Shown in pieces: positions 22,106 through 62,201 of a stretch of 64,000 nt of DNA. Positions within the stretch are counted from its first letter, which is position 1. Each line of letters opens with the position of its first letter. Made by a program: the position numbers and the translations under genes. This DNA is from Myrmaecium sp. VS I D KN 1. Taxonomy: Eukaryota; Ascomycota; Dothideomycetes; Valsariales; Valsariaceae. The stretch covers positions 310,001 to 374,000 of the forward strand of contig JADQAV010000009.1 in NCBI GenBank assembly GCA_019775845.1, written 5' to 3'. Under the pieces are notes generated by a model. It was not told the origin of the DNA and did not search any database. It saw only the letters and a program-made list of their open reading frames with translations.

Positions 22106-25100
22106 GAATTATCTCTTTCTAGTATGCTAGGTTCCCCGGGTACTATATAGCTAATACGGAGATATTAGATATTAATTTAAATACCCTTACTAAGAAGGTT
22201 ATATAACTATATAATAAGCTTATAACTACCTAGTAATAGAACCGCGCGATTAAAATACTCTATATAGAAATTAAGTTATTTTAAAACTAAAGAGCGGCTA
22301 TAGTAATACTCTCTACCTCCTCTACTACTAAAGTTTTAATTATAGTAGTTAAGGCCCTACCGAGATAATACTTTCCTAATTTAACTTAGTATATTTATAA
22401 CGACTTAAAAGAGTATCCTATATTTAAGATAAACCTTTATATAAAACTAGTAATAAACGCCCGTTACTTTAATATAGAGGAGGAGAAGGTTTAGTATATC
22501 TTTAGCCGTCTAGGTAGAAAGGCCGCTTAAAAGATCTTACCTTAGATTTATATAAAGGAAGGGAATAATAAGGTATTATAAGTAGACGAGCTATACTAAG
22601 TTATAAATATTACTTTCAGGGATATTAATAGTTAGTAAAAGACCCTTATATAAGTTAATACTATAAAGTAGGGATTTCGGGACCTAAATAAGCTCCTAAG
22701 TAAGTTTAATAAGGTTATAATTAAAGCTAGAGGCCTATTCTAGGCGGATAACTAAAAGAAGGCTTTTCTCTAAATAGCTATTAATATAAAGCTCCTATAA
22801 GAGATAATTAGAGCTAGGAGGGCTAAGTTATATAAAGACTATTATAACTAGCTTAGATAGATAGACGAGGACTAGAAAATAGTAGCTTAGATCTAGAATT
22901 ATACTAATTATCGGATAATACTAATATTTTAGCTTTAAGCTCTTATTTAACCGTCTTATAACTAGGATTAGATAGATTAAGAACTAACTAAAGTAAATAC
23001 TATAAAGATATAAGGATAACAGCCTCGTACGTACGCTAAATAAGTAACTTAGAATAAGTTATAAAAGAAACGGACGGAAGGAGTATATCTTAAATATAAT
23101 AAAAAGAACTACTTTACTAAGTAGTACTAGTTACTCCCGGCTTAGAGGCCTAAATAAGTTATAACCGTCTAAGATATAGAAGAGGTTAAGAACTTTAATA
23201 ATAAAGAGTACTAGTTAGCTAATAAGAAATAAGGAAAAGTATAACTCTTATATAAAGTTATAAACGAGGGGATAATAATATAGAATCTATAAAGTTTCTC
23301 TTTAATTAGTAAGACTTTAAAAGATCGTATATAAATTTATCTCCTTTTATTATCTATATAATAATTAATAAGGTATATACGGTACGTACTCTAGTAAAGA
23401 ACAGGTATTTAAATTATAGAATTATTAATAAATAGTTTATATAAAAGTATCGGCCTCTAACCTTTAAAATTAAACCTAGGAGAGTAAAAGGGGTAGCTAG
23501 AGAGGAAGGCTAAATTATATAGATTATATAAATAAGGCTAGATATTAAAATATATAAAAAGGAGGGAGCTTACTTCTATATCCTTCTAAACTACCTAGGA
23601 TATAACTTAATCTTAAGGAAGCTATAGCTAGACTACTATAATACTTAGATAAATTTAGAAAGAGGAAGAATCTTCTTTTATATAATAGAGGTTAAGCTAC
23701 GGGATAGGGGGGGAAACCCCTTCTAAAAATAAAAATTACTTAAATATATACTTCTACTATAGGAGCCCTATTAAGAAGGAAAAGGAAAAAAGGAGAAGTT
23801 TAAGTATTTATAGTAATTCTAAGAGATATCTAGAAGGCTCTTATATTTAAAAAGAAAGTTAATCCTTATCCGAGCCTACCTAAATAATACTAGGCTTACT
23901 TAAACCTATTTAAACTAGAAAATACCTCCTTACTTCTATTATACCGGGGCTCTAGGATTAACTATAATATTAAGCTTATATAAAAGAACGGAAAGGAGCT
24001 AGAGATATTATAGAGCTCTTTATATAATATAATCTAAGATAAACTAATAGTATTACAGAAAATACTTATTAAACTCCTAAATAAGAACTTTATCTAGGTT
24101 AATTATTCTTCTATAATAGCTCTAGTCCTTTTTATATAAAAGTTAGGAAGAAGCCTACGCTTCTATATAAACTATTAAGTCCTAAATATAATTATAAAAA
24201 AGGATAGGTATTCTTTACCGTTAATTTATAAAACTCTTAGGTAAATTAGCTAAGCTAAGTAGTTTATAAAATTAAACGTTAGCGTAGCCTTCTATAAGAT
24301 TTAAATCGCTAAAGGAAAGAAGTAGATAATAACCTTTTATATATAATATAACTTATATAAATAGCTGGTTACCCCCTTTAGTCTTAGAAATACTCTAAGT
24401 ACTTTTTAAAAGTATATTAATTAGACCTTAAGGGAATACTTAGATAAATTCTATTTAGCCTATATAGATAACGTACTAATATATTTAGACGGAATCTTAG
24501 AAGACTATTATATAAAGATTAAAAAAGTATTAAAAAGGTTAAAGGAAGCTAGGCTTTACCTAAATATTAATAAGTATAAATTCGAAGTAAAGGAGACTAA
24601 GTACCTTAGATTTATTATATAAATAAGAGGAGGAGTATAGATAAATCCCGTAAAGATTAAGATAAAATAAGAATAAAAGGCTCTATCTTCTATTAAAGGA
24701 GTTAGAAGATTCTTAGGCTTCGCTAATTTCTATTAATACTTTATAAAGGACTTCTTAAAGGTCGTATAACTACTAGTAGAACTTACTTATAAGGATAAGG
24801 CCTTTAGATAGACGAAAGACTATTAAGACGCCTTTATAAAACTAAAGAAGATATTCTTAAAAGGGCCGGTACTTATAGTATTTAACACCCTTTATATAAT
24901 AGTTATTAAGAGCGATTTCTTAGGCTATAATATTAGGGGAGTCCTCTCTTAGTATAATAAAGATAGTTTACTTAGACTATATATCTTCTTCTTAAAGAAG
25001 AACTTATTAACTAAGTATAACTATAAGATTTATAATAAGGAACTATTAGCTATTATATAATATTTAGAGGAATAGGACTTAGAGCTAAGATCGGTTAAGG

Positions 25101-28100
25101 AATTTAAAGTTATTATAAATTACCGGAACTTAAAGTACTTCTTTAGCCCTAGGAAACTAATAGAGAGGTATATATAATAATAGCTATTCTTTAGCTAGAT
25201 TAACTTCTATTTCTATTATAAAAAAAGTACCGAGAATAAAGTAGTAGACGCCCTATTAAGGAGGATATAAAATATATTAAATAATACGGATAAATAAGTA
25301 ACTAGTTATATAAGGTAACTACTCTACTAGCTAGTTCTAGGGAGGTATATAATAGCTTTACTACTAGCGCTTATCTTAGTAATAAAGACTTCTTTAAAAT
25401 AAGAACTAGTTAAAGACTATAATATAGTTTACTAAGAAGTAACTTAGATTATATAAAGTAGAGCCCGGTAGTTCTCTTTATAGCTTTAGCTTAAAGTCTT
25501 TATAAGAGAATATAAACTAGATAAGAAAGACTTTATCCTTTACTAAAAGAGACGCTAAGTACTAAAGTATAAACTATTATATATAAAGATTATCTAGGAG
25601 GCTTACAACTTAATACTAGCTAGATATCTAAGATAGGAATAAATATATACTTATATTACTTAAGCGTATTTCTAGCTAAATATAAGTAGGGATATAAGAT
25701 AATTTATTTAAAACTATAATATATATAGAAGAACTAAGGCTTTCTAGTAGTAAAAATAAGGACTTTTAAAACCCCTACCTATTTCTAATAGACTATAGTA
25801 GGAAATATTAATAGACTTTATAATTAACCTCCTAAAAAGTAGAGGTTATATAAATATCCCAGTTATTATAGACCGGTTAATAAGAGGTATAATCTTTAAA
25901 GAAGTAAGAGAGATAATAGTAGAATATTTAGCTAAGGTTATAGTTTAAAGCTTCGTATAATACTATAGCTTCTTTAAAGTAATTACTTTAGATAGAGGTA
26001 CTTAATTTATAGGAGAACTTTAGTTATATATATATAGGTTAATAGGGATAGAGAGGCGCCTAAATATAGTATATTATCTATAAACGGACGGCGCTATAGA
26101 AAGGATTAATAATATTATAAAAGCTTACTTTAGGGCTTATATCTATTTTAACTAAAGTAACTAAGTAAAGCTACTCTCTTTAGCTAAGCTAGCTCTTAAC
26201 GCTTATATAAATACTATAATAGGAACTAGCTCCTTCTTTCTATCTTATAAATTTAAGTTATCCCTCTTTAAACTAAAGGAACTACTAGAAGAAGCCCTAA
26301 CTAGGACTAAGACTCCTTTATAAAAAGAAGAATAAATTATACGAACTATTAAGGATATACTTAAATAAGTAAAAGCGTTTATAACTTATACTTAATAGGA
26401 AGCTGAACGCTAGGTAAATAAAAGAAGAAACTTAGCTCCGGAATATTATATAAGGAATAAGGTCTAGCTCTTCCTAAAGAATATTTATATAATATAGCTA
26501 TATAAGAAACTAGATTAGAAGAATAATAAATATACTATCTTAGAGACTATAGGCTTATATACTATATAACTAAATACTCCCCCTAGAATTTATAATATCT
26601 TTTATATAGATTAAGTTTATTTAGTAGTAAATAACCTCTTACCTTACTAGTAAATAGATAACTCGTAACTCCGCCGATATAATAAGATAGTAAGGACGAA
26701 TATATAATTAAGAAGATTATTAATAAGTATTATATAAAGAGGGGAAGAGGCTAATAAGTATAATATCTAGTAAAATAAGTAAGATACGCTAGGCCTACTT
26801 AGGAATTTAAAGCTATATTAGAAGATATAGCGGCCTTAGAAGACTAGCTTATATAAAAGGAAGGAACTTCTTAATAATAAGTACTAATAGAAGATAAATA
26901 TAGCGGTAGGAAGGTAAGGACTTTTATTTATTCTATAGACTACTAACTAAATTCCTAGGGTAAAGAGAGGTAAAGGTACTAAACTATATTAGATAAAAAT
27001 AGATTATTATATAAACGGTTAATCCTCTATATTATAAATATTAGGAGGAAGAATAGCTAGGGGTATAAGAGGTATAAAAGCTTCCTAGCCGTTCTAATAA
27101 AGATAACGCTACTAATAGGACTTCTATTTATAAGATATATAGGTACCTTTATAAAACCTAGTAATTTATATAATATTTCCGAAGTTCCTATACAGACTAT
27201 AGGCGTAGTAGACGGGGAAAGAAGTATTATAAAAAGTAATTAATATAGTATTAATATAGGATTAATAGGCTATAGCGAGCTAGAGAACTAAAAATTAGTA
27301 AGAACTATTATATAAAAGACTAGACCTTAGTACTTACCTACTAAATAGTAACTAAGAGACGATCCTAGTTATTAAATTATAAGAAGAAGGAATAAGTAGG
27401 TATTTACTAAACTTTATACTAAATAATAAATATTAGTATAGTTATATAAGAAGTAAAAAAAGGCTACTTACTTAGCGAGCCGTATAGTAGACTTAGAAAA
27501 GATATAAATTAGTAATATATATTAACTTATATTATATATAGTAGTATCTACCTTCTTTTACTACGAGAGGTACCTATAAACGCGTGAGGAAGGAATAAGT
27601 TATCTAAGTAATAGTAGGTATAGCGGGGGCGGGTAAGACTATCAAAGCTTAATTAAAGTTAAAATCTATCTTATAAGCTAGGATAGACGAAGATTCTATA
27701 CTAATATTAGTAACTTTACTAAAGAGAGAAGAATAAGTTATTATATAAAGATAGTAGTAGGATAGTAGAGAAGAGAGAAACGGAGATAACACTAGTAGTT
27801 AAGAATAATAAAAAAAGAAAAAAAGAAGTAGAAATAGATAGGAGAAAGCCTCTATTTATAAATAAAGCTAGATAGAGAAGCGGTTAAATAGTATTATAAG
27901 AGATAAGAAGAAGTAATAATTATATAATATACTACTGTCTTATATAAAATATCCGGTAACTAAAGAGGAGTAGTAATTATAGAAAAGAAGCGGTTAACCC
28001 CTTATAGCGAGAGGAGAGGATATTAAGCTAATATAAGAGCTAATACTACGCCCTAATAAGGAAAACGGTTAAATATAGTTAACCGCTATAGTATAGATAG

Positions 28101-28154
28101 TTAACTACTATTATATAAAGGTATACTATAGCTTAGAGAAGGAGAGGAAGGGGG

Positions 28155-28381
28155 TAATATTAGGAGCTTAAGGCTAAGGAGGCTAGAGACTCGCCTTACT
28201 AAAGGTAAGGCTTTATAAGCTAATATATAATAATTACGTACTTATATACGTAACCTCCTAGAGGTGCTATATAAACTAATAAGCCTCTTTATACTCTTAA
28301 CTTTCCTTCCTTAGATAATCCTTCTTATCTTATAGTTAATTTATTAGGCTATTCCTAGCCGCAGTTTAAACTGTAATATTA
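28155..28381 (+). repeat. 3' LTR of the fossil retrotransposon
   Basis: Direct copy of 21881-22105. Differences are mainly C/T and G/A. Transposase-like reading resumes right after it. Confidence 0.85.
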
Positions 28382-28937
28382 TAATTACTATCTTACTATC
28401 TTAGTAGCTATACGTTATAAGAGTATATACGCTAGTCTATTATTATACTAGGGCTATTACACCTATAACTTAAGGAAATATATATTAAGCCGCTTTTTAT
28501 TTTATCTATTTAAAGAGTTATCACCTAAACTAACTATATTAATACTATTATTAATACGTTTATTTCTATAACTAAAATAATTTAGTAATAATATCCGATA
28601 GTTTAATAGTAAATAAATAGAAAAACTTTAGGGAAATTATTATCCGCGGCCGTCTTTAATACTAAAACCTCCTTAAAAGCGCAGCTATTATATTAGTAAA
28701 AAGTTATAAGAGTTATATATACTTTATAATACTCTACTAGATACTATAGTTATATTAACTATTTATTATTACTTTAAGCTTAACTACCTCCTCGTATATT
28801 TCTATAACTTTATTAGTAACCTTTAGTATAACTTAATTATTAGTTAACTAAGTATACTAAAATCTACTACTCCTAAAACTAATAAGTCTTTAAAATACAG
28901 AAATAATAAGAGTCGGCCGAACGTTTATATCGGCCTA

Positions 28938-30399
28938 GGGTAGCTTATTTAATACTAAATATTAACTAAATAAGGTCCCTACTAACTAAAAAAAACTGTA
29001 CTAAAAATAGGGGGGCCCTACTAACTAAAAAAAAACCCATGCTAAAAATTTAGACTAAAAAAAAACCTAAAAACCCCGAAAAAATCTATTTATAAGAGCT
29101 CGTTTTCCCACTTTAAAAATCCTAAAATATCTAATTAATTAAGATTTAAAAAAATAAAACTAATATAGCCTAACTATCTAGGTATTTATCTAGATTTCTC
29201 TAGATTTTTTTAGATTTTTCTAGATTTTTTTCTGATTTTTTTTCCCTAGAAAAAAATCTTTTTTTATTATTCTTTTATATTAAATATCTATAAATACTAA
29301 ACTTTTATAACTTTTATAGATTAGAAAAATACTAATCAGTATAATACTATTTCTTTTATATTTTTATCTATTTTATTTAAAAAGTTAGTTAGTTTTTCTG
29401 GGTTCTTTAGAAAGTGTCCTACCTTAACTATAGAAATTTTATAAAAGATAAGATTATTAATTAAAAATCTTCTAACTTTTTATTCCCTTAATAAAAAAAT
29501 TAAAAAAAATACTATAGATATCTTTAGATATTTAGACTCTTATGCTATAATATAAAGCTTATATAATAAGTATAGATTTTATAATTAATCTATTTAGTTT
29601 AAAAATCTGGGGCTTTCCCCCCTCTCGCTTAAAATCTAAGAATAGAAATCCTAAATCTCTAATAATGTTTTTTAGCCGCTCTTAAATTTTTTAAAAATTA
29701 GTATATAGATACTAGATAGTATTAACTATAATATATTAGATTTATATAACTGCTCCTTAAGTAGATTATTTATTATTAATTTTTAAGGATTAAAATCTAG
29801 GGTTTTTAGATTTCCCTGCCTCTCGCTTAAAATCCTCCCACCTCGCTTAGAATATTCTCTTAATATTACTAAAAAATTAATAACTTATTTTAGCCGCGCT
29901 AAAATTTCTTTAAAATTAGTATATAAATACTATATATTATTTATTATAATATACTAGATTTATATTACTACCCCGTAAGAAATAAATTTGTAATTAATTT
30001 TTTTAGATCTAATATTTAAGATTTTACCTTAGAAACCCCTCCCTCACTTATATTTTAGTACTAAAAATAGCTATTAAAAATTAGAAATAATATTAAAATA
30101 ATAAGTAAAAAGTAATATATATATAAATCTATAAATATCTAGGTTAAGAATAAATTAAAAAGATAAAAAAATTAAAAAAAATGAAAAAAAAGCCTAAAAA
30201 AATCTAGAAAAATCCTAAAAATCGGTAAAAATCCGGGATTATCGGAAATATATCGGCTAAATTTTTAGCAGCTAAATCCCGACCCGTGCTAAATCCTCCC
30301 TACTAAAACCCGACCTGAACAAAAAAAATAGAAGCTCTACTAACTAAAAAACCCGACGGGTTTTAGCTAGTATAGGTTTACTAACTAAAAGGGCCACCC
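28938..30399. mobile_element. Non-autonomous (MITE-like) insertion, less RIP-altered
   Basis: An insertion of about 1.46 kb with no coding frame, in the 3' part of the transposase. The octamer TCGGCCTA occurs on both sides (28930-28937 and 30407-30414), within a longer similar context (TATATCGGCCTA and TATATAATCGGCCTA), which looks like a target-site duplication. The ends are weakly inverted (GGGTAGC / GGCCACCC). Subterminal TACTAACTAAAA units occur twice near the left end (28980, 29019) and twice near the right (30338, 30379). Unlike the rest of the island it keeps CpA and TpG dinucleotides, so it either arrived after most of the RIP or escaped it. The 8-bp duplication would suit a hAT-like mobiliser; that is inference. 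Confidence 0.55.
29610..29990. repeat. Imperfect tandem duplication (about 200-218 bp period)
   Basis: Within the non-autonomous insertion, CTCTCGCTTAAAATC recurs at about 29622 and 29820, and TAGCCGC followed by AAATT(A)GTATATA recurs at 29673 and 29891. The two halves align as diverged tandem copies. Confidence 0.6.
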
Positions 30400-31869
30400 T
30401 ATATAATCGGCCTATATTATCCTCTACTCCTTAAAGAGTATAGACTAATAAGTAATTATAACGTTCTTATTAGAGAAAGTAAGTATAAGTAAGTTATTCT
30501 TCCTACTTTCCTTATAAAGAGGTAGCTAAAATAAGCTCTCTCTCTCTCTTTTATTTATTATAGGGAATATAAGAATAAAATCTACTATATAAATTATATT
30601 AATCCGGAAAAGAATCTCCTCTTACGCGAGAACCTCTATTTAATAATATAACTTATTTTACTTAGTATATTTAACTCTATAAAGCTAGTACTCTTAGAGT
30701 AGTTTACTATATTATATAAGTACTACCCTATATTATTTTAATTAATACGCCTACGCTCGGAGTAAACCGATATAAATAATATAGCGTTAAATATTTAAGC
30801 CGACTTAATATATCTAAAACTACGTATATTAGTTAGAATATAGTCTTACTTCTATAAATAAAGCCTTTAATTACTTATTTAGCTTAACTAGATAGTACTT
30901 AACTTTAGACTAATATTATAAGATAGGTATAGATATAATTATAGGCTAAATATTATATATATAAGTTACAGCCTAGTACGTTAGTAGAAGAAGCTTACTT
31001 TTAATAATAAATATATATATATAAAAAATAAGTTTATCTTTTTATAAAACTAATTATATACTTTATAGTTCTAATACCCGGGTAGTCTTACGTTACGGTA
31101 ACTTTATTTCTTTCCGTAGTAATAAGATTAGGCGCCTTAACTAAATATTTATATATAAAGCTATTACTAGTACCTTATATCTCTTTATTATAATTACTTA
31201 AATTATCCGAACTATAACTAAATATAAATAAGCTAAGGATAAGGGATAAAGCCTTACTAGTAAATTAGATTATTTAGTTTTTTTAGTATTATATAATAGT
31301 ATAGTAGGTAGCAGTAGTATAATAGCTAACTAGTAGTAAAGGTAGCTAGATATATATACTATATAGTAAATAGATTAAAGAAGATTATATACTACTTACT
31401 TAATATTTATTATAGTATATATATTATAAGCGAACTAAACGTATTAATATAGAAGATAATATAAAAATTATCCTAATACTATTATAGAACTATATTTATA
31501 CTTACTAATAACTATATATATATACTATTATTTTTATAATACCGTTAATTTAGTAGATAATATACTAACCTAAATATACTCTCTATCTTATATATTTATA
31601 TAGTTTTTAATAAATAAATAAAACTCCGGTCCGTGTAATAGAATATATATAATAAGCTATATATAGTATCTTTCTTATTATTCTTTATATAATATATATA
31701 TAATATTCTTAACGTATACTATTATTATATAGTTTAAGATTTTAAATAGTATAAGTACTCTTTATATATATAAGCGCTTATATGTTATAAATAATAATAT
31801 CTATAAATATTCCTACACTATACTAGTTTAGTTATATAAGATATATATATTAAACGATAGTATAGTAGA

Positions 31870-31903
31870 AAAATAACATCACTACAGTATAAAAAACCCC
31901 CCT
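31870..31903 (-). repeat. Right terminal inverted repeat of the TIR transposon
   Basis: It ends ...AAAAAACCCCCCT and is the inverted partner of 16954-16987. It marks the right edge of the AT-rich island. Confidence 0.7.
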
Positions 31904-38565: not shown

Positions 38566-41426
38566 ATGAAGTACGGCGAAACGCTGCGGCAGCGTTCAAT
38601 TCCGGAATGGGGGCATTGTAAGTGGCGCTGCTAGGATCTCGACTCCGGAAGGGGCATGACTAAACCCTCGGCGATTTGCAGACAATGTCGACTACGATGA
38701 GATAAAGTACCTGATCAAGGAACATACCACCCCAGGCACTGCGAAAGCAGTATCGATCCCGGGACAAGGTAGCCCTGCTGAAGAGGCTTTTGAGGCACAG
38801 TTGTACAATATCCTTTGCGATCAACATCAACGGATCAACCTCTTCGTGAAGAGCAAGACGGGAGAGATCGAACGAAGGCTAGGTACGTAGAGTGTGGATA
38901 TAGATTCGGGCGATAGGGCTGACGACGGACAGCCCACTTGAGCAAACAGGTCGCGCAACTCGAAAGCCGTGAACAACTTTCTGGAACCGGCCGAATACCT
39001 GCAAGACGCCTGGAGCGATATGCTAGGATCGAAGGGGAGGTGCTGAAGGCTGGCCAAGAAATCCGGTCTCTTTCTCGGTTCATTGGGGCCCAAAGACTGG
39101 CCTTTGTCAAGTTACTGAAGAAGTACAAGAAATGGACAAACTCGGATACCCTGGGGGCGAAATTCAAGCGGGAGGTGATGCAGGAACCCGGTAACTTCTG
39201 CACGATGGACCTCGGGCCTCTGCTGGATCATTGGTCAGATGTCTTGCATGCAGTGAGGGCGCCCTTTGAGGCAAAGGTCCGGACCGGACAGGGAAGAGGT
39301 GACGCCCACATTGAGGCCTCTCCATCGCGACCTGGGCAAGCGAAAGACGATCCTGAAGCGAACACAAGCATTGCGAAGCAGATACAGGATGTCATCGATC
39401 GCGGCCTCGATGTGGATTTTGACCTGGCAATCTCTACACTTCCGTTTGGCCCCAGCGGTGGAAGAGCTGTTTACTGGGTGCATCCGGACAATATTGTCGA
39501 GCTGCAAGTATTGATGCTCCAGCACATGCGCCTCCACATCCAGAAAGACAAGGCCAGGACACCGATGAATGGCACTCCTTTTGCAACCCCGCCTCGTCGG
39601 AACTCCTCACCTAGGCTGGATTCCAACTTGGACGATGAGGTCGATACCGGGATGCTGGTACTCGACGATCTTGCAACGTTCGTTGAGAAGCGGAACCGGG
39701 CTACCCTGAGCGAAAACGAAGGCACCCCAGGCCGTCCACCCACGACTGTGGCCGGCAGCGCTAGGTGGCACGCTAGCGGCGATGCTATCGTTGCGGTGGG
39801 ACTGCAGGATGAGAACGAGATGAAGTTCGCAAGGATCAAGCGGAAGCACCTCGACGATTTTCTCGACGTCGAGAAAGCCTTCAGTAGACGGCCATCCGTT
39901 GATTCGGCCAATGGAGAGAACGGCTCTGGCGCAAACGCTACCAGTGGAGAAGCGCTTAACGATGTCAGGAACTGGCTGTCCACCCACCGGTCCATCGAAC
40001 CGCTTGTGAGCATCTCCACGAAGAGGACGCGCTTTGTTGGACTCGTCAACGGCAATACAAGTGGCACATGGGCCGTTTTGGACCAGCATATCTTCATGCA
40101 AAAGGACATCCCAGGTCCCAAAAGTTCTACGAAGGCCACGGGAAGTTTTCCTTTTGCCGTTTTGGAGATTCGGAAAGAGGGGAACCAAGCTGGCGAACTC
40201 ATCAAGACCCTGGACAGGAGCCATTTGGTAAGTACTCTCAAGGATCTATTGTAATAATACAAGGTCTAACAAAACATAGGCTGAGCGAGTACGGGGCTTT
40301 TCCCTCGAGACGCATGCTGTGTGGATGTGCTGCAAGCCAGCCTCTATGTCCCCACCTTTCTGGGTAAGTTATGCAGAACTGACATTCTTCCACGCCCCAT
40401 GCTAATATGTATCAGCTCCCAATACTGTCCAAAGACATTCGGAAGGTCCCTGAAGCCCAAGCGACTCGCCGAGGCCGACTTGCAAGTCTCCCGGGCGATC
40501 CGATATCGCCCATCCGTACCCATACCTCTACATCAGCAACCTCCGTTACCGATGCTACCGGTTCACCAGGCAGGAACGGAGAGTCGTCCGCGACCTCCAC
40601 GGCTGATCATCTCGAAGTCGCTCCGCTGAGTGCCTTCCGTAAAAAGAGGATGCGCTCGAATCGCCTCTCCAAATGTGTGGAATCAGAAAACGAGGCAGCA
40701 TCTGTAGGACGTTATTGGAGCGAGTATGACCACCCCGAAGATGGCTCCGACAACGAGGACGGTGCCTACGTTATCTATGTCGACCCCAACGCGAGCACCA
40801 AATTCCCCGGCCAGGACGCTGTCGTCAACTGGCTTAACAAACTCTTCAAGAAAAACAAGTCGACCGAATCTGAGCATGAGCATAACCCCTTACTTTCCGG
40901 TCCGTCAAGTGCCGGCTACCCTGACAACGATGGCAGCGATGTAGAGTCTCTCTTCTCCACCGAGATAGCCCGCGGATACGGTACCCTCCCTCGCTCCTCG
41001 CGGCCCCGCGAAGGCGCGACGCCGGCGCAACCTGAGCAGCGTCTCGGCTTCTTCGCCTCCTTCTTCCACCCGGACCACCGGCCGTACTACGACCCCAGCC
41101 TGGACTACGTCTCGGCGCTGGAGCTGTCGGCGCAGGAGCGGGAGAGGAACAAGGTCCGGCTGTGCGCGCTCAGCCTGTTGGCCGCGGTGGGCTTGCTGGT
41201 CGTGGTGATGCTGCTGGCGGCGACGGGCCGGCGGAAGCAGGCCGAGGAGGTCCACGTGGGCATCTTGTTTGGCGTGGTGATGGATCTGTGCTTTGCGATT
41301 ACGGCGGTCGGCAGCGTGGTCACGACGAGGAAGGATGTCGGGTGGCTGCGACGGATTGTGGTTTGGGGGGTGTTTGCGGCGGTGGTGGTGGGTGATGGGG
41401 CGTTGTTGGGGTGGATTATTGGGTAG
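38566..41426 (+). CDS. vtc5: SPX-domain VTC-complex protein (VTC5-like)
   Basis: Five exons: 38566-38617, 38682-38882, 38933-40227, 40280-40363, 40416-41426 (introns 64, 50, 52 and 52 bp, all GT-AG), 880 aa. The N-terminus MKYGETLRQRSIPEWGHYNVDYDEIKYLIKEHT is a clear SPX domain, with KAGQEIRSLSRFIGAQRLAFVKLLKKYKKW as its C-terminal helices (Lys residues for inositol pyrophosphate). A long variable middle follows, related in layout to the VTC tunnel region but without the polyphosphate-polymerase motifs I would expect of Vtc4. The C-terminus has three membrane helices (about 41160-41425). SPX plus three C-terminal helices fits yeast Vtc5/YDR089W, which stimulates vacuolar polyphosphate synthesis. 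The assignment is from architecture. Confidence 0.82.
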
Positions 41427-45272: not shown

Positions 45273-47934
45273 CTAGGTATGACCATTGACTTTGCCCAAA
45301 TTCACTCCACCGCCTCCCACAATGGAATAGTTCGTGTTACCATAAGGAGGCTGGATAGTGGAAGGCATGCGAGGAGCAGTAGGAAAGTTGTGAGCGGGGA
45401 GAGAACCGAACTTCTGATTGGGGGCTGGTGGTGGTGGCTTTGGGGGGAGACTCGACGGAGTACCCCATTTTGCGATAGTACTGTGGCCGGGACCAGAAGA
45501 AGTCTGATTGTGGTTGATCTGCATAGGATTCCCCTGGGCGGAAACCGGCTGCGGCAACGGATGCATCGGCTGCGACAAGGGCTTGGGGAGAGACGAGTTA
45601 GGATTCCTCGGCGAACCAAATGTAGGCTGATGACTGCTTGGAGGGCTGGGCCTGAACATCGGGGTTGGCATGTTCATCGGGACAGGACCGTAAGGATTGC
45701 CGTTGGAGTTGGGAATCGGAGAGATTGACGACTGCATCGCAAACGGGCCATTCCTGCTGCCAGGAATGAAAGTCTGGCTCTGGGGGTTGAATGACGGCCG
45801 GTTGAAGCTCCCTGGAATCGGATGCTGAGTTCTCTGGCCATGCCCATAAGTAGGCAACTGCCCATAAGCATACGAAGTTCCGAAGGATCCCTGGCTTGAC
45901 GAGGAGATAGGACGATCACTGAAACCGTTGGGCATGTACGGGGGCGCTGCCATCAGAGTCGGAGTCTGTTGGGACATCTGGCCCCAAACCTGGTTACCTT
46001 GTGGGTTCTGCGGTCTAAATCCATCAAAGCCTGCCATCTGCGAAGAAGTCATCTTGGGCGTTATCTGCGAAGGCAGATTGGCAGATTGGAACGATTGCAT
46101 CCCTCTCTGGAAGTCCGCAGAAAGTTCATAGCCGGTTTGGGAAGGCGGGCTATAATTAGAATACGGCAACGGAGCTGGTGGAGCTGCAGATGGGTAAGTT
46201 TGCCCATTCCACAAGGGCTGATTCTGCGTCTCCTGCGGCATAGCCATATTGTAACCCCCATTATACCCCGCAGATTGCGGAGCCACTTGGAATTGACCGG
46301 TGGCCATCGTCGTTGCATACGGGCTGAGATACACAGCAGTTGACTCCGAAGCATATCCCGCTACATTGAAACCCGGTGCATAATAAGTATACTGGGAACG
46401 AGCGTCGAAGCCATCATCGTTGTTCCTTTGTTTCTTTGACTTTTTCTTGCCGGATGTGGAGCTTGAGCGGGAGGCATCCTTGGACTCGGAACCACTGGGC
46501 TCGGTTGATTCTTTCGTATCCCCAAAGATGCGCTGTCTAACTTCGTTATACTTCGCCTCACGCTCCTCGCGGGTCATCTGCGACGGCTTTTTAGGCTCTG
46601 CCCCAGCTGCATCGCCGCTCCCGTCGCTACCGTTGGCGCCGACTTCAGAGGTAGCTTTCGAGGCATTCTCTGAATTGGAGGCGGTGTTAGATGCGGAAGC
46701 AGGTTTTGGCCCCTCTCCACGGCGCATAATCTTCTTGGCTGGCATATCCATCGGTGGTGTACTGGCAGCTGTGCCAGGGATGTTTAGGCTTGTGAGAGGT
46801 GGAGGACTAAACCGTAATCAGTAAAAGCTCAGTTTGGCAGATTAAAGCAGGAACTTACATGCGACAATATGTCGTCTTGGTGATGTTTACTGCAGTCAAT
46901 GAATCATCCACAATGTGGCCTAGCAGATAATAATCCGCAAGACGATGCGCAAGCATTCTGTAGAAGGAGTTACAGTTTGGCAGGTTAAGAACCGACTCTT
47001 TAGAGTTGTTGACAAAGTCAATGAGATCTTGCTCAAGCTTGAGTACGAAAAGCCGGTCTCGAGGAGAGCCCAGTGCTTCAAGTAACTGCGGATCCGGTAG
47101 CGGAGTATGTTCTCCGCTTCCAGATACACCAGCCCCATGCCCCACCTGGGCGGCCAGGGGCGGTAGATGTTCTATCGCAGCAGGGGAGTCAAGAGTTGTA
47201 CTACTCCCTGCAGCTTGCATGGTGGAAAACCTCCCCGGTGGCACCCCGCGATGCGGCAAGGCTCCAAGAGAGGGGATTTCACGCAGCTGGTCGCGGAAAG
47301 CACGCGCATCACCATTCTCCGATTCCACACGTGATCCGGCGACGAAAGACCCTTGTAAGGACTGGGCATCTTCTTCCTCAACGGCCCTCAAGCTTGCACT
47401 GTCGTCAGGTCGGAGGGACTCCTTTTCGTCAAGAGCGAAGGTAGCTGCAGATGCCACGCTTTTGCCGTCAAGGCTTGGTGGCTTTGCAGAGTCAGATGAT
47501 GACAACTGTGTAACATTGTCTTCCACGGGCATTATTCTAGATGTTCCCATGGATATGTTCGGCTGCTTAGGGTCCGTTTCTCGGCCTCCCGGTCGAACTC
47601 CGTTTGAAGGTGGGGAACCGTGACTGTGGCCGTCATTGTTGTATACTTGATCCAGGGACTGTCGTTCCGCTGTAGTGGACTTGGAAGGATGTGCTCCATT
47701 GGAATCCACTTTATTAGAATTAAGCAAACAGGTGGGCGGCTGCGAACTTTGCGAGCGAGTGATTCCGCTTTCGGATGCGACTGAACTCGTCTCCCGGTCT
47801 GTGTGCGCTGAGGCGGCAACCTTCGAACAGTTAGTCTGGTGTAGCTTTGATGGATAAAAATACACTATACGGACCTTTGCAAATGTCGGTTTGAACGCCG
47901 CCTTCTCCAGAGGGGCTGATGCCGAAGATGCCAT
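45273..47934 (-). CDS. R3H-SUZ domain RNA-binding protein
   Basis: Exons on the minus strand: 47934-47875, 47820-46859, 46806-45273, giving 851 aa. Intron 2 (52 bp, GTAAGT...TTTAG) is certain because it joins the R3H to the SUZ domain: ...TTYCRI|PPPLTSLNIPG. Intron 1 (47874-47821, 54 bp) has a GTCCGT donor, a CTAAC branch site and AAG end, but is a multiple of three without a stop, so it could be retained as an 18-aa insert. R3H lies at about residues 275-335 (KLEQDLIDFVNNSKE...FYRMLAHRLADYYLL). The SUZ core is MDMPAKKIMRRGEGPKP, then the Gln/Pro/Asn/Gly-rich low-complexity C-terminal half common in RNA-granule proteins. It probably binds mRNA in the cytoplasm. The ATG at 47934 gives MASSASAPLEK; upstream codons look like leader. 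Confidence 0.85.
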
Positions 47935-48711
47935 AACGCCAGATATGTTGCCTTCGCGAACAAGGAGTGGGTTCAGTAGCGCTATGTTGATTGTGCGAAT
48001 GTGGAAAGCGGCACGTCCTGGCGGAACCAAATGAGGGAATGTCAAGGAAGCGGTAGGCCAAAAGATCTCAGGAAATAGGCTGCTCAAGGAAAGTCGAAAT
48101 AACCAAGGCCGAGGCGTGGGACATGTTGGAAATTCGACATATACGGCTGCCGTGGACTTGATCAATAGCGAGAAGCTTCCCTACAAAGGGTCTGCGACGG
48201 AGAAATGGGTCGATCGGATGTCGTCTGCAGCATTCACAGCCGTACGATGCGCGAAGAGCTCTACTCTTCCGGGATCTTCGCCGCAGTCGATCAGGCACGC
48301 CGCCTATCAGCAGCGGTCTGATCTAGTCTGGTAAAAGCGTGGACGGGCCGGCGGGGGATGAGATGCGGATTTAGAGCGTGAGGTTGGATTCCCGCGACGG
48401 TTAGGTAGGTTTCCGAGTGCGATGGAAAGAGACCCGTGCGGAGGGCCGGCGCGTGGGTTTCTCCGGGCCCTGAACCTTGGCGCCTAGGTATGGAGGTTCA
48501 ACTCTTCGACAGTCGTCTTGGGCAACTTGATCAACATATAGTATCTTCTGTACTGTCAGTTATTTCACAGCCAAGGGGCTTATAGCGGGGACGGCTTCTT
48601 CCCGCATCTAACAGTTTCACCGACACCGCATCCTGCTGAACCCGTGGGCAGTCGCAGTCCCATAGCAGATCACCTAGATTGCTAGCTGGAAACCTTGCTC
48701 TTCTGAGCTCC
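47935..48711. promoter_or_regulatory. Divergent spacer between R3H-SUZ and zinc-knuckle genes
   Basis: About 0.78 kb separates two start codons pointing away from each other, so it must hold both promoters and leaders. I see no specific element to call and no gene in it. Confidence 0.5.
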
Positions 48712-49679
48712 ATGAATCGTTTTAGGCCTCCAGCTCGCTCAAAGGCCCCGCCGAACACGCTGTGTCAGAAATGTCTCAAACGAGATAAGTCACCTTCAAT
48801 CGAGGAGTAGGCGTCCTAAAAGCTGATTTTGCCTTACGCCACTATAGCTACGAATGCACAGCCGCGGTCCAGGAGCGTCCATACAAGCCCCGGCCGTCGC
48901 GCACACAGCAATTGCTCAATCCGAAGTTAATGCCGCAGTTAAACAGTGAGGTTCCAAACGATCTACTCCGAAAGAAGGGCATCGCAGACGAGGAACTCGC
49001 CAAGAAGGCCCATGAGCGCGGAAGGAAGGAGGGTTTCGAGGCGATCTCCCCACGGCTCCGTTCGCGTTCCGTCTCTTCAAACTCCGAATCTGTCTCTACA
49101 ATCTCCACCAACCTTTCTCGATCGCCTTCCCCTCGCAGAAATCGGTCGTCTAGTCCACGTCGCAAGTCCCGCGTGGATCGCGATCACAGTAATCGTCGCA
49201 AGAGGAGACGAAGTCTTAGCTCATCGGGCTATTCCCGTGGTGGAAGCAATTCAGAAGAAGCGCATAAGGCAAAAGACAGGAATACCCGGAAACGCTTAAG
49301 CTCTTTCAGCCCAGTTCCCCGTGGCCGCCGTCGAAGCAGGGTTTCAAGATCTCCGGACATGGAACATTCAAGAAGTCGCAGCGACAGCAGGAGCAGGAGA
49401 GCGCGAAAGACGCGATCTCGTTCACTCAGGCGCGTGAGACGTAGCATTTCCGGGGAGCGCTCTCGTAGTCCGTATAGGCGTGGAAGAGAAACGCGACGGG
49501 GGTATGAAGAACGTCCTCTCCGGGTTGAAGAGCGTCCTCTCCGGGTTGAAGAGCGTCCACCCGTGGCCTCGCTCTCGAACGGAAACGGATACGTCGATCC
49601 TCTTCCGCCCCGTGAAAGGAGCCTCAGTCCTTACAGCAAAAGACTGGCTTTGACGCAGTCAATGAGTATGAGTCGGTAG
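48712..49679 (+). CDS. CCHC zinc-knuckle protein with RS-rich tail (ZCCHC10-like)
   Basis: Exons 48712-48784 and 48838-49679 give 304 aa. The join uses AT-AC splice ends (see the intron entry) and yields C18-x2-C21-x4-H26-x4-C31 within CQKCLKRGHYSYEC, a perfect knuckle. A canonical GT-AG pair that does this is absent. Then follow RPSRTQQLLNP and KKGIADEELAKKAHERGRKEG, also typical of this family, and a long Arg/Ser-rich tail from residue about 110, like SR splicing factors. A near-perfect 24-bp tandem repeat encodes EERPLRV twice (about 49516-49557). The protein probably acts in nuclear RNA metabolism. The start at MNRFRPPARSKAP is the usual one for this family. Confidence 0.85.
48785..48837 (+). 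other. Apparent AT-AC intron (U2-type ends ATAAGT...TTAC)
   Basis: A 53-bp interval beginning ATAAGT and ending GCCTTAC. Excising it joins CGA-G to GC-CAC and recreates ...LKRGHYSYEC in frame. Reading on without splicing meets a stop within 10 codons (TAG at 48808), and no AG lies in the last 16 bases before the His-Tyr-Ser-Tyr codons. A CTGAT near 48823 could be the branch site. Ends of this form are known from rare U2-type AT-AC introns. Confidence 0.7.
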
Positions 49680-50003: not shown

Positions 50004-50663
50004 TCATAGCGAAGCCTCGTCCTCTCTGCGTTCTCTCTCCTGCTCTTCTTTCTGCTCTCTCTCGCGTACATGCATGGCCTCCACGATAGCTGCGCCTTCC
50101 ATACCCACCTCCTCCGCACCATCGGGTTCCCCGCTCTGACCAGTAGCACCCGACGCCTTCCTTCTCTCCTCTGCCGCTTTCTTCTGCTGATCGATCCTCT
50201 GCCTGACCAGCTTGGCTATGGCGTTCTCCGTCTTCACATTATATGGGCGCAGCTTTTCCTCTAAATCGCGCTTTAGGTCCCAATTTGGCTTCTTTGGTTG
50301 CAATCTGAACAGGTCAAACTGCTGATCCGCTTTGGCCTCTTCCTCCGCTTTCTGTTTCAATTCCGCCTCTACCCTTGCAGCTTTCTGTTCCAGGGTTTCT
50401 TGCCCTTCTGCCGGGTTCGCCTCGAAACCTAGCTTCGGTCCGCGTGTTTCTGGATCGTAGTTGCGGCCTGAGAGGTATCTCTTGGTGATATCGGCCGGCT
50501 CGCATTCGTCCTCGATGGGGTTGGGGATGGCGTTCACGGGCTCATCGTTGGTGATATGCTCAGTCTCAGCTGTCGGGGGTTGCTTGCGCTTGAGGGATTT
50601 GAGCTGCGCCAGGCGCGCCTTTCGATCTTGTGTCGCGGAAGTCAGGGATGCGTGGGATGACAT
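50004..50663 (-). CDS. cwf18: Pre-mRNA splicing factor Cwf18 (CCDC12 family)
   Basis: Intronless, 219 aa. The N-terminus RKARLAQLKSLKRKQ, the central KRYLSGRNYDPETRGPKLGF and NPAEGQETLEQKAARVEAELKQKAEEEAKAD, and the KPNWDLKRDLEEKLRPYNVKTENAIAKLVRQRI block are all in the order known for Cwf18/CCDC12. This small helical component of Prp19-associated spliceosomes (S. pombe Cdc5 complex) is present in activated and catalytic stages. The C-terminus is a long charged coiled coil (REREQKEEQERERRED). The length is slightly above the family norm (about 140-200 aa). Confidence 0.92.
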   Translation of the reverse strand: MSSHASLTSATQDRKARLAQLKSLKRKQPPTAETEHITNDEPVNAIPNPIEDECEPADITKRYLSGRNYDPETRGPKLGFEANPAEGQETLEQKAARVEAELKQKAEEEAKADQQFDLFRLQPKKPNWDLKRDLEEKLRPYNVKTENAIAKLVRQRIDQQKKAAEERRKASGATGQSGEPDGAEEVGMEGAAIVEAMHVREREQKEEQERERREDEASL

Positions 50664-53966: not shown

Positions 53967-56165
53967 TTAAACAAAGTCGAAGGTATCTCCGCTCTTATCC
54001 TTCAGCATACTGCCAACCCTCTTCGTGCCCACCACCCTTTCTAACCGCAGGCCATCCCACTTGGAGAACAGAACCCTCACGCTCGCTTCCAGCGGATCCA
54101 GCTTCCCTTCTCCGATCGTGGTACCCAAGAAACCACCAACAATCTCTGAATAAAATATCGGATTATCCGGGAGGGCGTACATGATGACTCGCTTGACGCC
54201 TCTGATCAGGTACCGTCGGAAGTGGTGCGCGCGACCCGTGTACAACAGAACGGAGTGCCTGCCGGTGAGGAAGTGAGACCGTGCGCGCCGCATGTCCGGC
54301 GGCTCGGTGTACTCGGAGATGGCGCCGAAGGATATGTGCTGTGTGGCTTGCGAGGCGGCGAAGTAGTTCCGGAGACGGACAAAGTCCAGATAAGATGGGA
54401 TGAAGATGAGGATGCCTTGGCCGCCCTCAGGGGCTTTGGGGTACCGGTTCAGCGCAGGTATGATGGCGGAGGTGAAGTATTTGAAGCGGGCATCGGGATC
54501 GGCGGCAGGTGAGGGAGAATCGAAACGGGAGAAAGTCTGCTTGACTTGCAGCCCGATCTCCATGATGGCACCTTCGTATTCCGGTTGGTATTTGAGCTTG
54601 CCGGCGACATTGTGCATTTGTTTGTTGAAAAGACTGTTCAGCTCTGGCGTCAGAAAGGCGGATAGGATGATTGTTTGGCGAAGATATTTGGCATTTCCGT
54701 CGAGGTACCAGTGCCGAACACGACTGAAATCGCAGCCGTGAGCGTCTTTGGGTTGAAGGTTCAGGTGTTGATAAACATATTCGACGTGTTCCCAATTCTG
54801 CATGAGCATGGCATCGGCCTGGTCCATGATGACCACCTCAATAGAGCTGAGGAAATCGAAGTCCATCTTCTTAGGTCCAGCTCCTTCAATTGCTCTTCGT
54901 AGTCCCAGCGGGCTTGCAAAGATAATATCAGAATTGTAGAACTGTGAGAAGAACTTGACGGTCTTGCGGGTAAACTTCATCCCCAGTCTAAACTCGTTGT
55001 CATCGTTGCCTTCGAACAACTCACGGAAGTCTTCCGGCTTATCTTCCCCGAACTTTTGCTCTGTTACGACGAAGGAGTCCTGGAATCGCTTTTTATGTTC
55101 TTGCTGTTCCGGCTCGACAAGTGCAGTGATCGTATCTACCATCCGAGCACACGATTGCCTGGTCTCTAACAGCATGAGAACCTTGGGCCTGGTGAAACCC
55201 TGATCTCTGAGTTCCAGATCTCCATCTTCCTCTTTCGTTAGCCTCGCGTTATTTTTGATTACGCGGTCCCGGGTCTTGAAAAGGTGGTTGAGAGCGTGCA
55301 AGCAAGCCAATTTGCGCAGATTTTCCGCGTTTTTGACTGTTCGGGCCCCGAACAGAACATCAGTATAGTCGAAGATAAAGGGGGCCAGGGCTTGGTCAAG
55401 CTCATCAAATTGCGCCAGTTGCTTTTGAGCTGGCTCCACGAGCTTCTTCTTGAGTTTCAAATCGTTCAGCGACTTAGTCGGGCGTTTAGAAGGGCCAGAA
55501 CCTGCAAGAGAGTAAAAGATGCCCTTGCCAAGGGCCCCCAGCGGGATTTTCTGAAGAGCCCACTGGTTACTGGAAGCGTCTTTCACCTTCTTCCCAAGCT
55601 CTTCCTCATCAGGAGAAGAGAAGTGAATCTCAAAGGGGTCAGATGCATCTTCGTCATCATCGATGAACCCGGCGTCTTCCAACGGCTCGTCCTCTGCCTC
55701 AGAGGCCGAACCAACATCGGAGTCCTTGACTTCGGTCAATTCGTGCGGAGCGGGAGTCGACTGGCGGCTGGAATGCGCATCACCATCTTCAGCTGGTTCG
55801 TGCTCAATCTTTCTGCGTTTCCTCCGGGGCTGATCCTCAGTTGCGGATTGCTGGAATGATTGAAGTAAAGCATTGTAGGGTCGAACACCCGACTCTGCTG
55901 TGGCCTCATCGTCCGAGGATACTTCATTCTCAACATCAGATACTTCACTGGGGCTGTCGTCATGTTCTAAGCCCTGTTCAGATCTGAGTTCTCTATTTAG
56001 TCCGTACGTTCAACATGGTTTGGGATTCTTTACATACTCATCATCCGATACTGGATCTTGTATTCTTGCTGTGGTGAACGTATTTCTCTGACCGCCCCGC
56101 CCTCTCCCTCTACTCCCTCCTCTTCCTCTGCCTCTAAAACCGCCTCTTGCGCGTCCTGGTGGCAT
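53967..56165 (-). CDS. utp25: U3 snoRNA-associated protein Utp25 (SSU processome)
   Basis: Exons on the minus strand: 56165-56038 and 55983-53967 around a 54-bp GTATGT...CTCAG intron, 714 aa. The N-terminus is an RGG-rich stretch ([22 protein letters not shown]), then an acidic region ([21 protein letters not shown]). The Utp25 domain is the DEAD-helicase-like fold with eroded motifs: [113 protein letters not shown]. Utp25 has no true Walker A, which agrees with what I read here. It works in the nucleolus on 18S pre-rRNA, the same machine as Mpp10 in this window. Length fits (about 700 aa). Confidence 0.95.
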
Positions 56166-56434: not shown

Positions 56435-57571
56435 ATGGCGGACAGCTCCTTCCTCCACCTTGCGCGACCTCTGGGCCCTGCTCACGTTGGCGCACAACCC
56501 TCGGTTGCCCCACTCAACGTCGTGGTTCAACCGCAGGTAAGAATTCACAGTCGTGGTCAAGGGAGGACGCCGACTCATTGCAAACCTTCCAGGCCCTCCT
56601 CTCCATCCTCGATCACTCTCTCCGCCGTAACCCTGACCAAGAGCGCGTCATCGGTACACTCCTCGGCGTCCGCAGCGAAGATGGCACTGAAGTCGAGATC
56701 CGCAACTGTTACGCTGTCCCCCACACCGAGACCGCCGAGCAAGTCGAGGTCGACATGGACTACCAAAAGCAGATGCTTGCGCTGCATCTCCGCGCCAACC
56801 CCCGCGAAGTGCTCGTCGGCTGGTACGCCACGAGCTCCGAGCTCAACACCTTCTCCGCCCTCATCCAGAACTTCTACAGCCAGCAGGGCGATGGTACCTG
56901 GCCACACCCCGCCGTCCACCTGACCGTCTCTACCGTGCCTGGCGAGGATATTGAGGCCAAGACCTACATTTCGGCGCCCGTTGGTGTCACCGCTGAGAGA
57001 GCGGCTGACAGCTGTCTTTTCATCCCCGTTCCCCACGAGCTCAAGTATGGCGAGGCGGAGAAGAGTGGTCTGGAGTTGATCTCTGGCGCCAAGGACAGGG
57101 AGGACAGGTCCCAGGTCGTGATGACGGACCTTGAGTCTTTGGAGAGGTCGGTTGAGCACATTCTGGAGATGCTGGATCGTGTGTCGAACTATGTCAACAA
57201 CGTTCTGGATGAGGAGGCCACACCTTCAAGCGCTCTGGGCCAGTTCTTGATGAATGCTCTGTCTCTTGCTCCCAAGGTGGAGCCTGCGGATATTGAGCGT
57301 GACTTGTATGTTCTACGCTCTGTTTCCCACTGTCGAAAATCTCTGCTAACGCTTCAACAGCAACAACCACATCCAAGACGTTCTTGTTGTTTCCTACCTC
57401 GCAAACACTATCCGCACACAAATCGATCTGTCGAACCGACTGGCTACCGCTGCGCTCACCCTCGGCGGCGGCGATGCGCTTTCCGGCGCAACCGAGGGTG
57501 GACAGAAGGGAGGACAAGACCAACGACGCGGCAAAGGACGCCAGAACCGCCAACAACAGCAGGAAGCGTAG
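56435..57571 (+). CDS. eif3f: Translation initiation factor eIF3 subunit f
   Basis: Exons 56435-56536, 56593-57305, 57361-57571 (introns 56 and 55 bp, GT-AG), 341 aa. The MPN domain starts at [19 protein letters not shown] with [27 protein letters not shown]. The segment [34 protein letters not shown] replaces the JAMM metal-binding histidines, so it is a non-catalytic MPN as in other eIF3f. [26 protein letters not shown] and the C-terminal helices [37 protein letters not shown] complete the family pattern. It acts in the cytosolic eIF3 complex at 40S. The C-terminus ends in a Gly/Gln/Arg tail ([19 protein letters not shown]). Confidence 0.95.
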
Positions 57572-59111: not shown

Positions 59112-59660
59112 ATGGTATGTGTGTTGTAGTCTTTGAAAAAAAAAAAAAACAGGTGTAACTGACTCTTTTGTCTACAGACGGCCCTCTTCAACTTCCAGTC
59201 CCTCCTCCTCGTCATTCTCCTCGTCATCTGCACAAGCACATATGTCCACTCCGTACTTCCCGGGCCTATGGATCGTAATAAGGATGGGTAAGCCCCCAAT
59301 CGCCCTCAGCGATAACCGACGAACGCCAGCGTTTCCGGGCACGATGGGAGGTCGTTATTGCGATGAGGTCATAGCTAACGTCCACGGGCACACAGCGTCT
59401 TCGGCATCTTCTGGAAGTGCGCCAGGATCGGGGAGCGGTTAAGTCCGTACGTCAGCTTATGCTGTATTTTCATGGCTGTAAGTTCTAGGTCCATCCGTGG
59501 GGTTGAAGCTGGGTGCGATCTGGGGTACTGCGTGGGCTGTACTATGGCCTTGTCTTAATGCCCGTGGGTTCTGGGATCGTTGCCTGTCCTTCGCATTCAC
59601 TTTGGGAAGTTACAGTGGCTGATATTTGCGCTTCAGGTGTCTGTCCTTATGGGCCAGTGA
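59112..59660 (+). CDS. ksh1: Kish family protein Ksh1 (TMEM167)
   Basis: Four coding exons: 59112-59114 (the ATG alone), 59178-59287, 59396-59477, 59637-59660, joined by introns of 63, 108 and 159 bp, all GT-AG. The product is 72 aa: [27 protein letters not shown]...[41 protein letters not shown]. This matches the very conserved Kish protein almost end to end, including [18 protein letters not shown]. Ksh1 is a small two-helix membrane protein of the Golgi, essential in yeast and needed in the early secretory pathway. The first coding exon holds only the start codon and the last only 24 nt, so ORF-based gene finders would miss it. The final 159-bp intron is longer than its neighbours but restores the family C-terminus. 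Confidence 0.93.
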
Positions 59661-60834: not shown

Positions 60835-62201
60835 ATGGCTTCCCTTCGCAGCACGGCCCCCCGCCGTCTCTCTCAGTTCCGTGCTTACACGTTTGCCCGC
60901 CGCTTCAGTACGGTGCACGATGTGCCGGTCTCGGTGGCAGGAGGTACGGCCGCTCCGGCGGCGCCCAAGGCCAGCTCGGTGTTCCAGGACGCCCTGAACG
61001 CCACGGAGCCCAGGAACAACTGGACAAGAGAGGAGATTTCGGAGATCTATAACCAGCCGCTGATGGAGCTGGCGTTCGCTGCTGTGAGTGCTTCCATCAC
61101 ACCACCGGACTTCACACCCTTTTCCACCCGGTCCAACATCGACGAGTCTCGATAAGATATCAGCGACAGTGCTGACATGATGGATGCCAGGGCACATTGC
61201 ACCGCCGCTTCCACAACCCTGCTGCGATTCAGATGTGCACCCTGATGAACATCAAGACCGGCGGGTGCAGCGAGGACTGCAGCTACTGCGCCCAGTCCAG
61301 CCGGTACAACACCGGTCTCAAGCCGACGAAGATGTCGTCGGTCGACAGCGTGCTGGCGGCGGCGAAGATCGCCAAGGAGAACGGCAGCACGCGGTTCTGC
61401 ATGGGGGCGGCGTGGCGGGACATGCGCGGGCGCAAGAACGGGCTGAAGAACATCGCCGCGATGGTGCAGGGCGTGCGGGCGCTGGGGCTGGAGGCGTGCG
61501 TGACGCTGGGGATGATCGACGCGGAGCAGGCGAAGACGCTGAAGGAGGCCGGCCTGACGGCGTACAACCACAACGTTGACACGAGCCGGGAGCACTACCC
61601 GACCATCATCACGACGCGGACGTACGAGGAGCGCCTCCAGACGATCGCGCACGTGCGCGAGGCCGGCATCAACGTCTGCACGGGCGGCATCCTGGGGCTG
61701 GGCGAGCGCAGCAAGGATCACGTCGGCCTGCTGCACACCGTCTCCACCCTGCCCAAGCACCCGGAGAGCTTCCCCGTCAACACGCTCGTGCCCATCAAGG
61801 GCACCCCGCTGGGCGACACCCCCCGCCTGCCGTTCGAGAAGGTCCTCCGCACCATCGCCACCGCTCGCCTCATCATGCCTCGCACCATCATCCGCATCGC
61901 CGCCGGCCGGACGGAGATGAGCGAGGAGAAACAGGCGCTGGCCTTCATGGCGGGCGCGAACGCGGTTTTTACCGGCGAGAAGATGTTGACGACGGACTGC
62001 AACGGCTGGGATCAGGATCGGGCGCTGTTTGAACGCTGGGGGTTGCGGCCCATGGGCGTCGAAGAGGCGGCGCGGAGTCGCGGCGAGGTTCCGGCGCCGA
62101 CGGTGGAGGTTACGGAGTCGAAGGAGGAGAGGGCGGAGAGACTGGTGTTTGAGGAGGCGCAGGATGGACAGGCTGCGGCTGCGGCGGCTGGTGCTGCGTA
62201 G
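60835..62201 (+). CDS. bioB: Biotin synthase (mitochondrial, radical SAM)
   Basis: Exons 60835-61083 and 61191-62201 (intron 107 bp, GT-AG, phase 0), 419 aa. An Arg/Ser-rich N-terminus (MASLRSTAPRRLSQFRAYTFARRFST) reads as a mitochondrial targeting peptide. The radical-SAM 4Fe-4S motif C109-x3-C113-x2-C116 is in GGCSEDCSYCAQS. YNTGLKPTKM, the GSTRFCMGAAWR and LEACVTLGM cysteines, AYNHNVDTSREHYP, GINVCTGGILGLGE and RIAAGRTEM follow, giving both iron-sulphur clusters and the SAM site. It inserts sulphur into dethiobiotin, the last step of biotin synthesis. The C-terminus is a Glu/Ala-rich tail. A bioF-like gene lies convergent 1.15 kb downstream. Confidence 0.97.

Follow-up and report, generated by a model that had tools for sequence, protein, structure and literature searches.

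Of the splice-site pairs annotated in 130 fungal genomes, 0.019% belong to introns that begin with AT and end with AC (PMC7072748), which sets a low prior for any new example. AT-AC termini were found in 69 of 14305 RNA-seq junctions of Trichoderma longibrachiatum with TopHat, a program that reports only GT-AG, GC-AG and AT-AC junctions (PMC4324775), and, for three fungi of which Aspergillus niger is one, in 0.03% of the introns modelled by SnowyOwl (PMC4084796). Fusarium graminearum has them as well, within its set of non-canonical pairs, in a study whose seven displayed genes, not necessarily those with AT-AC pairs, were checked by Sanger sequencing (PMC3577648). For human fungal pathogens the range given is 0.09-5.19% (PMC6176087), the top end of which we suspect to be mapping noise. 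The original prediction for the locus described here held that U2-type AT-AC introns are known but rare and that few are described in ascomycetes; the latter understates the several RNA-seq and annotation reports at low percentages. In humans, intron 21 of SCN4A has AT-AC termini and needs the major-type spliceosome (PMC2831892).

We analysed a 64,000-nt stretch of ascomycete DNA (the window) and propose that positions 48785-48837 are a candidate intron of this known kind, since the AT-AC class is already documented in ascomycetes. The candidate and SCN4A intron 21, which lacks U12-type signals, share AT-AC termini and the absence of such signals; unlike the human intron, the candidate is 53 nt long, fungal and in a different gene, and its dependence on the major spliceosome is a prediction. 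It has the same termini as the Trichoderma and Fusarium introns and likewise comes from an ascomycete, but their junctions rest on RNA reads, whereas 48785-48837 is a candidate predicted from DNA. In the full text of the literature, exclusive of supplementary files, we found no paper with the motif CQKCLKR, with ATAAGT together with AT-AC, or with zinc knuckle, AT-AC and intron together. Our preferred reading, to which we assign a probability of roughly 0.8, is that the interval interrupts a zinc-knuckle gene, which we take to be ZCCHC10-like, as a short phase 1 spliceosomal intron of the U2-type AT-AC class (AT-AC II).

Gene model and zinc-knuckle spacing

Reading-frame translation places the gene at 48712-49679 on the plus strand, with the following predicted parts (a slash marks an exon boundary):

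48712..48784, plus strand: coding exon 1, MNRFRPPARSKAPPNTLCQKCLKR and the first base of the following codon (CGA G/)
48785..48837, plus strand: putative AT-AC intron, 53 nt, phase 1, U2-like, judged from frame, knuckle, Pfam match and splice signals
48838..49679, plus strand: coding exon 2, GC/HYSYECTAAVQERPYKPRPSRTQQL..., with an RS-rich tail, running to the stop

Exon 1 comprises 24 codons and ends in CQKCLKR. The conserved block HYSYECTAAVQERPYKPRPSRTQQL begins with the His codon at 48840, and the HYSYEC at the start of exon 2 is the second half of the knuckle, in phase 1. Without any excision, the frame across the interval reads CLKRDKSPSIEE and then meets a stop. Removal of 48785-48837 (G/ATAAGT...TTAC/GC) yields the phase 1 junction CGA G/GC CAC, and translation then continues as MNRFRPPARSKAPPNTLCQKCLKRGHYSYEC... 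in frame up to the stop ending at 49679. Joining of the exons would thereby restore the CCHC knuckle CQKCLKRGHYSYEC in a 304-aa product with C-x2-C-x4-H-x4-C spacing, an RS-rich tail and 31 RS/SR dipeptides. The window contains no ambiguous base N. Within the RS-rich tail lies a tandem repeat (49500-49558; 21-base unit, 2.8 copies) that encodes the protein repeat EERPLRV.

The AT-AC product scores 64.9 bits to zf-CCHC_3 (PF13917) over its first 93 aa and 61.5 bits over the whole 304-aa protein, both above the curated cut-off of 27 bits. Exon 1 aligns to model positions 3-14, and a product with this half only scores 14.9 bits, below the cut-off; exon 2 from His onward aligns to positions 15-41, and a product with that part only scores 36.9 bits. 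In the coordinates of these aligned partial products, Arg24 falls at model position 13 and His at 15, so that exactly one codon fits between them and the excision length is 53 nt. The C-x2-C-x4-H-x4-C pattern is present only when 53 nt are excised between Arg and His. The original prediction, which had an apparent AT-AC intron of 53 bp at 48785-48837 with ATAAGT at 48785-48790 and a terminal TTAC, and a cut that rebuilds the zinc knuckle in frame, is borne out on these points; only its placement of the interval directly after Cys-x2-Cys needs correction, as the donor comes after Cys-Leu-Lys-Arg.

Four 53-nt registers keep the knuckle spacing (first six and last three bases: GATAAG...TTA, ATAAGT...TAC, TAAGTC...ACG and AAGTCA...CGC), and ATAAGT...TAC, at 48785-48837, is the sole one of the four with termini known for spliceosomal introns. 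The residue at the junction discriminates poorly because Asp scores nearly as high as Gly (Gly 64.9, Asp 63.3, Arg 58.9 and no residue 52.2 bits), and the junction Gly is weak evidence for the AT-AC cut. As the junction residue matters little at fixed spacing, it is the spacing and the splice signals that carry the argument.

Searches for homologues covered prokaryotes, plasmids and viruses, collections without fungi, and their misses therefore carry no weight. With a 68-aa exon-2 protein, 10 pattern stretches came up in IMG/VR contigs and 72 in GTDB contigs, none of which was confirmed, and the degenerate pattern RPYxxRPSRTQQL gave no match in these two fungus-free collections. A tblastn search of plasmids returned two weak bacterial matches annotated as ROK regulators (E 0.06 and 0.2), PF13917 had no match in one plasmid record and 14 control genomes (no fungi), and four remote matches came from PDB (best E 0.045).

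Competing excisions and other explanations

Enumeration of in-frame GT-AG pairs gave 14 candidates (donors 48732-48839, lengths 31-200), and none keeps the four zinc ligands at normal spacing. Scored as stretches of 49-91 aa, the best of these 14 products reached 49.6 bits to PF13917 and the next 48.6 and 47.0, with the others lower and one unmatched. Two of them share an acceptor:

48789-48847: GT-AG excision, 49.6 bits, His lost
48762-48847: GT-AG excision, 29.6 bits

Ten further GT-AG products ranged from no match to 48.6 bits, and the last two scored 22.4 and 15.8 bits. The AG nearest before the His codon (48840) is at 48821-48822, and the next one after it at 48846-48847. The original prediction denied that any GT-AG pair yields the His and last Cys of the knuckle; this holds at knuckle spacing and fails without that condition, since excision of 48773-48810 (38 nt) retains the full set of four ligands, though the second Cys and His are then nine residues apart (47.0 bits), and several pairs retain HYSYEC while losing CxxC. 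GC-AG products, whose donors (48733-48759) all precede the first knuckle Cys, and most GA-AG, AT-AG, GT-AC, GT-GG, GT-CG and other AT-AC pairs lay outside the PF13917 scan. We also scored the excisions GT-CG at 48789-48838 (55.5 bits) and AT-AG at 48785-48822 (49.4 bits). In keeping with the predicted AT-AC reading, 48785-48837 is the only enumerated excision that would combine normal knuckle spacing with known termini, and its product has the top Pfam score among those scanned.

The strongest competitor is removal of a canonical GT-AG intron at 48789-48847 (GTCACC...CTATAG, 59 nt), which would leave the protein CQKCLKRDNYEC with the knuckle His lost and the knuckle degenerate. This excision is in frame, contains a branch-like CCTTAC whose A lies 11 nt from the end of the interval, and still gives a product of 49.6 bits. 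However, it would cut out HYS although HYSYEC is intact at the exact distance expected by the Pfam model, and its product scores 15.3 bits below the AT-AC product. Its donor fits the consensus GTRAGT at GT and +4 only; our intron scans required or favoured GTRNG, and the frequency of weak donors here is not measurable from them. On balance, we regard this excision as unlikely.

Still less probable is a mixed set of explanations: a decayed gene copy, a start at a downstream ATG without any intron, or a non-standard excision such as GT-CG at 48789-48838. The last of these gives CLKRDNHYSYEC and the 55.5 bits noted above, but CG is not known to serve as an acceptor. Decay is opposed by a 304-aa frame that is otherwise open, and a downstream start by the position of the nearest in-frame ATG downstream of the His codon, which is past the knuckle and outside the conserved block.

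An error in the sequence or assembly, with true GT-AG termini and two bases wrong, is very improbable: there is a single sequence to judge from, but two independent substitutions (48785 and 48837) would be needed, and these would have to happen to yield a matched AT-AC pair. A real mutation by RIP (repeat-induced point mutation) as the source of the donor A was rejected on base context, because the base before 48785 is itself a G, and an original G at 48785 would therefore put CpC, not CpA, on the complementary strand. A change of the acceptor at 48837 from G to C would be a transversion and hence not RIP. We also set aside, by judgement, a nested (stwintron) reading, as 53 nt has too little room for two introns; a search of PMC5639578 found no passage on AT-AC.

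Splice signals and the type of spliceosome

The preferred AT-AC intron would use these signals:

48785..48790, plus strand: 5' splice site ATAAGT, which differs from the U2 consensus GTAAGT by its A at +1
48822..48827, plus strand: branch-site-like GCTGAT, a sequence match only, whose branch A (48826) lies 11 nt from the end of the intron
48834..48837, plus strand: 3' splice site TTAC, which holds the first AC after GCTGAT

The donor matches NTRAGT at 5 of 5 specified positions, including the U2-like +3 to +6 (RAGT). A second branch-like stretch, CTAAAA, begins at 48816, and AC dinucleotides start at 48792, 48836, 48841, 48850 and 48858. In the mechanism we propose, U1 and U6 snRNAs would pair with UAAGU of the donor, perfectly apart from +1, the branch A of GCUGAU (48826) would attack the A at +1, and the first downstream AC (48836-48837) would then serve as the 3' splice site. 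Work in yeast indicates that A-C pairing of the first and last intron bases can substitute for the G-G interaction, and the terminal A and C of the candidate would be compatible partners in place of the usual G and G.

The U12 consensus sequences are RTATCCTTT for the donor and TTCCTTRAY for the branch site. The donor ATAAGT agrees with the former at 3 of 9 positions, too few for a U12 donor, and the best matches to the latter reach 6 of 9, too few for a U12 branch site; one of these sits right at the 3' end, and another has its 8th base 17 nt upstream of that end. No Rfam match at the gathering score was found in the 64-kb window. Published accounts differ on minor splicing in fungi: PMC7072748 describes most AT-AC pairs as recognised by the U12 spliceosome, and calls that spliceosome known in many fungi while its RNA genes were detected in one fungal species, whereas a survey of more than 3000 genomes reports that convincing minor introns are absent in Ascomycota and Basidiomycota (PMC10639083), and PMC2846911 lists Ascomycota and Pezizomycotina as without U12 splicing and minor introns as absent from Dikarya. 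Thus a U12-type (minor spliceosome) AT-AC intron, which the termini and PMC7072748 would favour but the poor donor and branch matches and the reported absence of minor introns oppose, is the least probable of the readings considered. A U2-type intron is favoured because donor and branch are U2-like and Ascomycota are reported to have no minor introns, and it appears the natural reading given an ascomycete host. From its sequence features, we infer that the 48785-48837 junction would be used in the cell by the major spliceosome.

We compared the candidate with the best-scoring GT-AG bridges between ORFs of Pfam-matched genes in the window, leaving out two ambiguous bridges of the VTC gene:

46807-46858: intron of the R3H/SUZ gene, 52 nt, GTAAGT, ACTGAT at 11 nt
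55984-56037: intron of UTP25, 54 nt, GTATGT, ACTAAA at 13 nt
57306-57360: intron of the JAB/MitMem_reg gene, 55 nt, GTATGT, GCTAAC at 11 nt
61084-61190: intron before biotin synthase, 107 nt, GTGAGT, GCTGAC at 15 nt

The introns at 46807-46858, 55984-56037 and 57306-57360 share with the candidate a length of 52-55 nt, the donor tail, the branch motif and the branch-to-end distance, whereas these neighbouring introns have GT-AG ends and the candidate AT-AC. The candidate would thus resemble an ordinary intron of the same genome with its two terminal guanines replaced, a likeness that is partly circular because the bridges were ranked by donor and branch consensus with lengths above 65 penalised. 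The predicted normality of its 53 nt for this genome is supported by neighbours of 52, 54 and 55 nt, the fourth being 107 nt under a ranking that penalised lengths above 65. As a control, splicing of 57306-57360, the only neighbouring junction checked by Pfam, gave 106.8 bits to PF13012 (positions 1-112), compared with 62.1 bits (positions 1-86) when unspliced.

Chance expectation, surroundings and implications

Chance was estimated from 200,000 random 56-mers with the base composition of 33001-64000. The probability of AT[AG]NGT...AC in one or another of the four registers that preserve the knuckle was 3.4e-4, and 2.5e-5 when a CTRAY-like branch site was also required; for GT-AG, GC-AG or AT-AC termini taken together the figure was 1.4e-3. 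These values are optimistic, because the motifs were picked with the sequence already in view. The hexamer ATAAGT is no rarity in itself (64 occurrences, counting both strands); what matters is where it lies.

Blind scans for ORF joins were unselective, and the case therefore rests on the knuckle and not on the scan. With 60 open codons on both sides, the scan returned 31 GT-AG rows, 36 GA-AG and 17 CT-AG control rows and 13 loosely defined AT-AC rows, and it missed 48785-48837 owing to the shortness of exon 1. When only 20 codons were required on the left, it returned 8 distinct GT-YAC, 8 GT-YAG, 5 AT[AG]NGT-YAC, 1 CA-YAC and no AT-YAG or TC-YAC joins. The five AT[AG]NGT-YAC joins are 48785-48837, 48785-48842 (same donor), 59117-59175 (a GT-AG candidate shifted by 2 bases), 7198-7270 and 7198-7272. 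In the region of 7198-7272, the background scan gave ATATGT...CAC joins with a branch motif that are probably due to chance.

The zinc-knuckle gene lies tail-to-tail with a gene for a cwf18/CCDC12 spliceosomal protein (50007-50663, minus strand; PF08315, 139.5 bits) and is divergent from an R3H-SUZ domain gene (45276-48180, minus strand) that harbours the 52-nt GTAAGT-TAG intron candidate at 46807-46858. In the VTC-domain gene, there is no clear single short intron between ORFs at 40228-40415, and the best bridge, of 188 nt, may represent two introns. Pfam matches in the window also include UTP25, Mpp10 and Ydc2/MRS1. At ~17000-31900, an AT-rich block of ~15 kb (25.6% GC, flanks 56-58%) has sharp borders and a very strong RIP-like signature, with TA/AT of 1.65, (CA+TG)/(AC+GT) of 0.06 compared with 1.08-1.2 outside, and CpA nearly absent. 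RIP is a hallmark of Pezizomycotina, and this block, the short introns and the presence of cwf18, UTP25, Mpp10 and Ydc2/MRS1 genes point to a filamentous ascomycete.

Taken on its sequence features, 48785-48837 appears to be a well-supported candidate of a rare but documented class. It is conceivable, if rather doubtful, that AT-AC termini at this position are ancient among ascomycetes, maintained by the compatibility of the first and last bases and missed since gene finders force GT-AG. If so, models of the orthologues would take the donor G/AT as an Asp codon, and the near-equal score of PF13917 for Asp at the junction fits such a hidden conserved AT-AC intron, as a hint and no more. Since the minor spliceosome is reported to be missing from ascomycetes, an AT-AC intron would provide a clean natural test of how far the major spliceosome accepts A at +1 together with C as the last intron base. 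Conservation of the AT-AC termini in relatives would put a date on the change and reveal a class of errors in gene models; if the termini are private to this genome, the locus would show the origin of two compensating substitutions.
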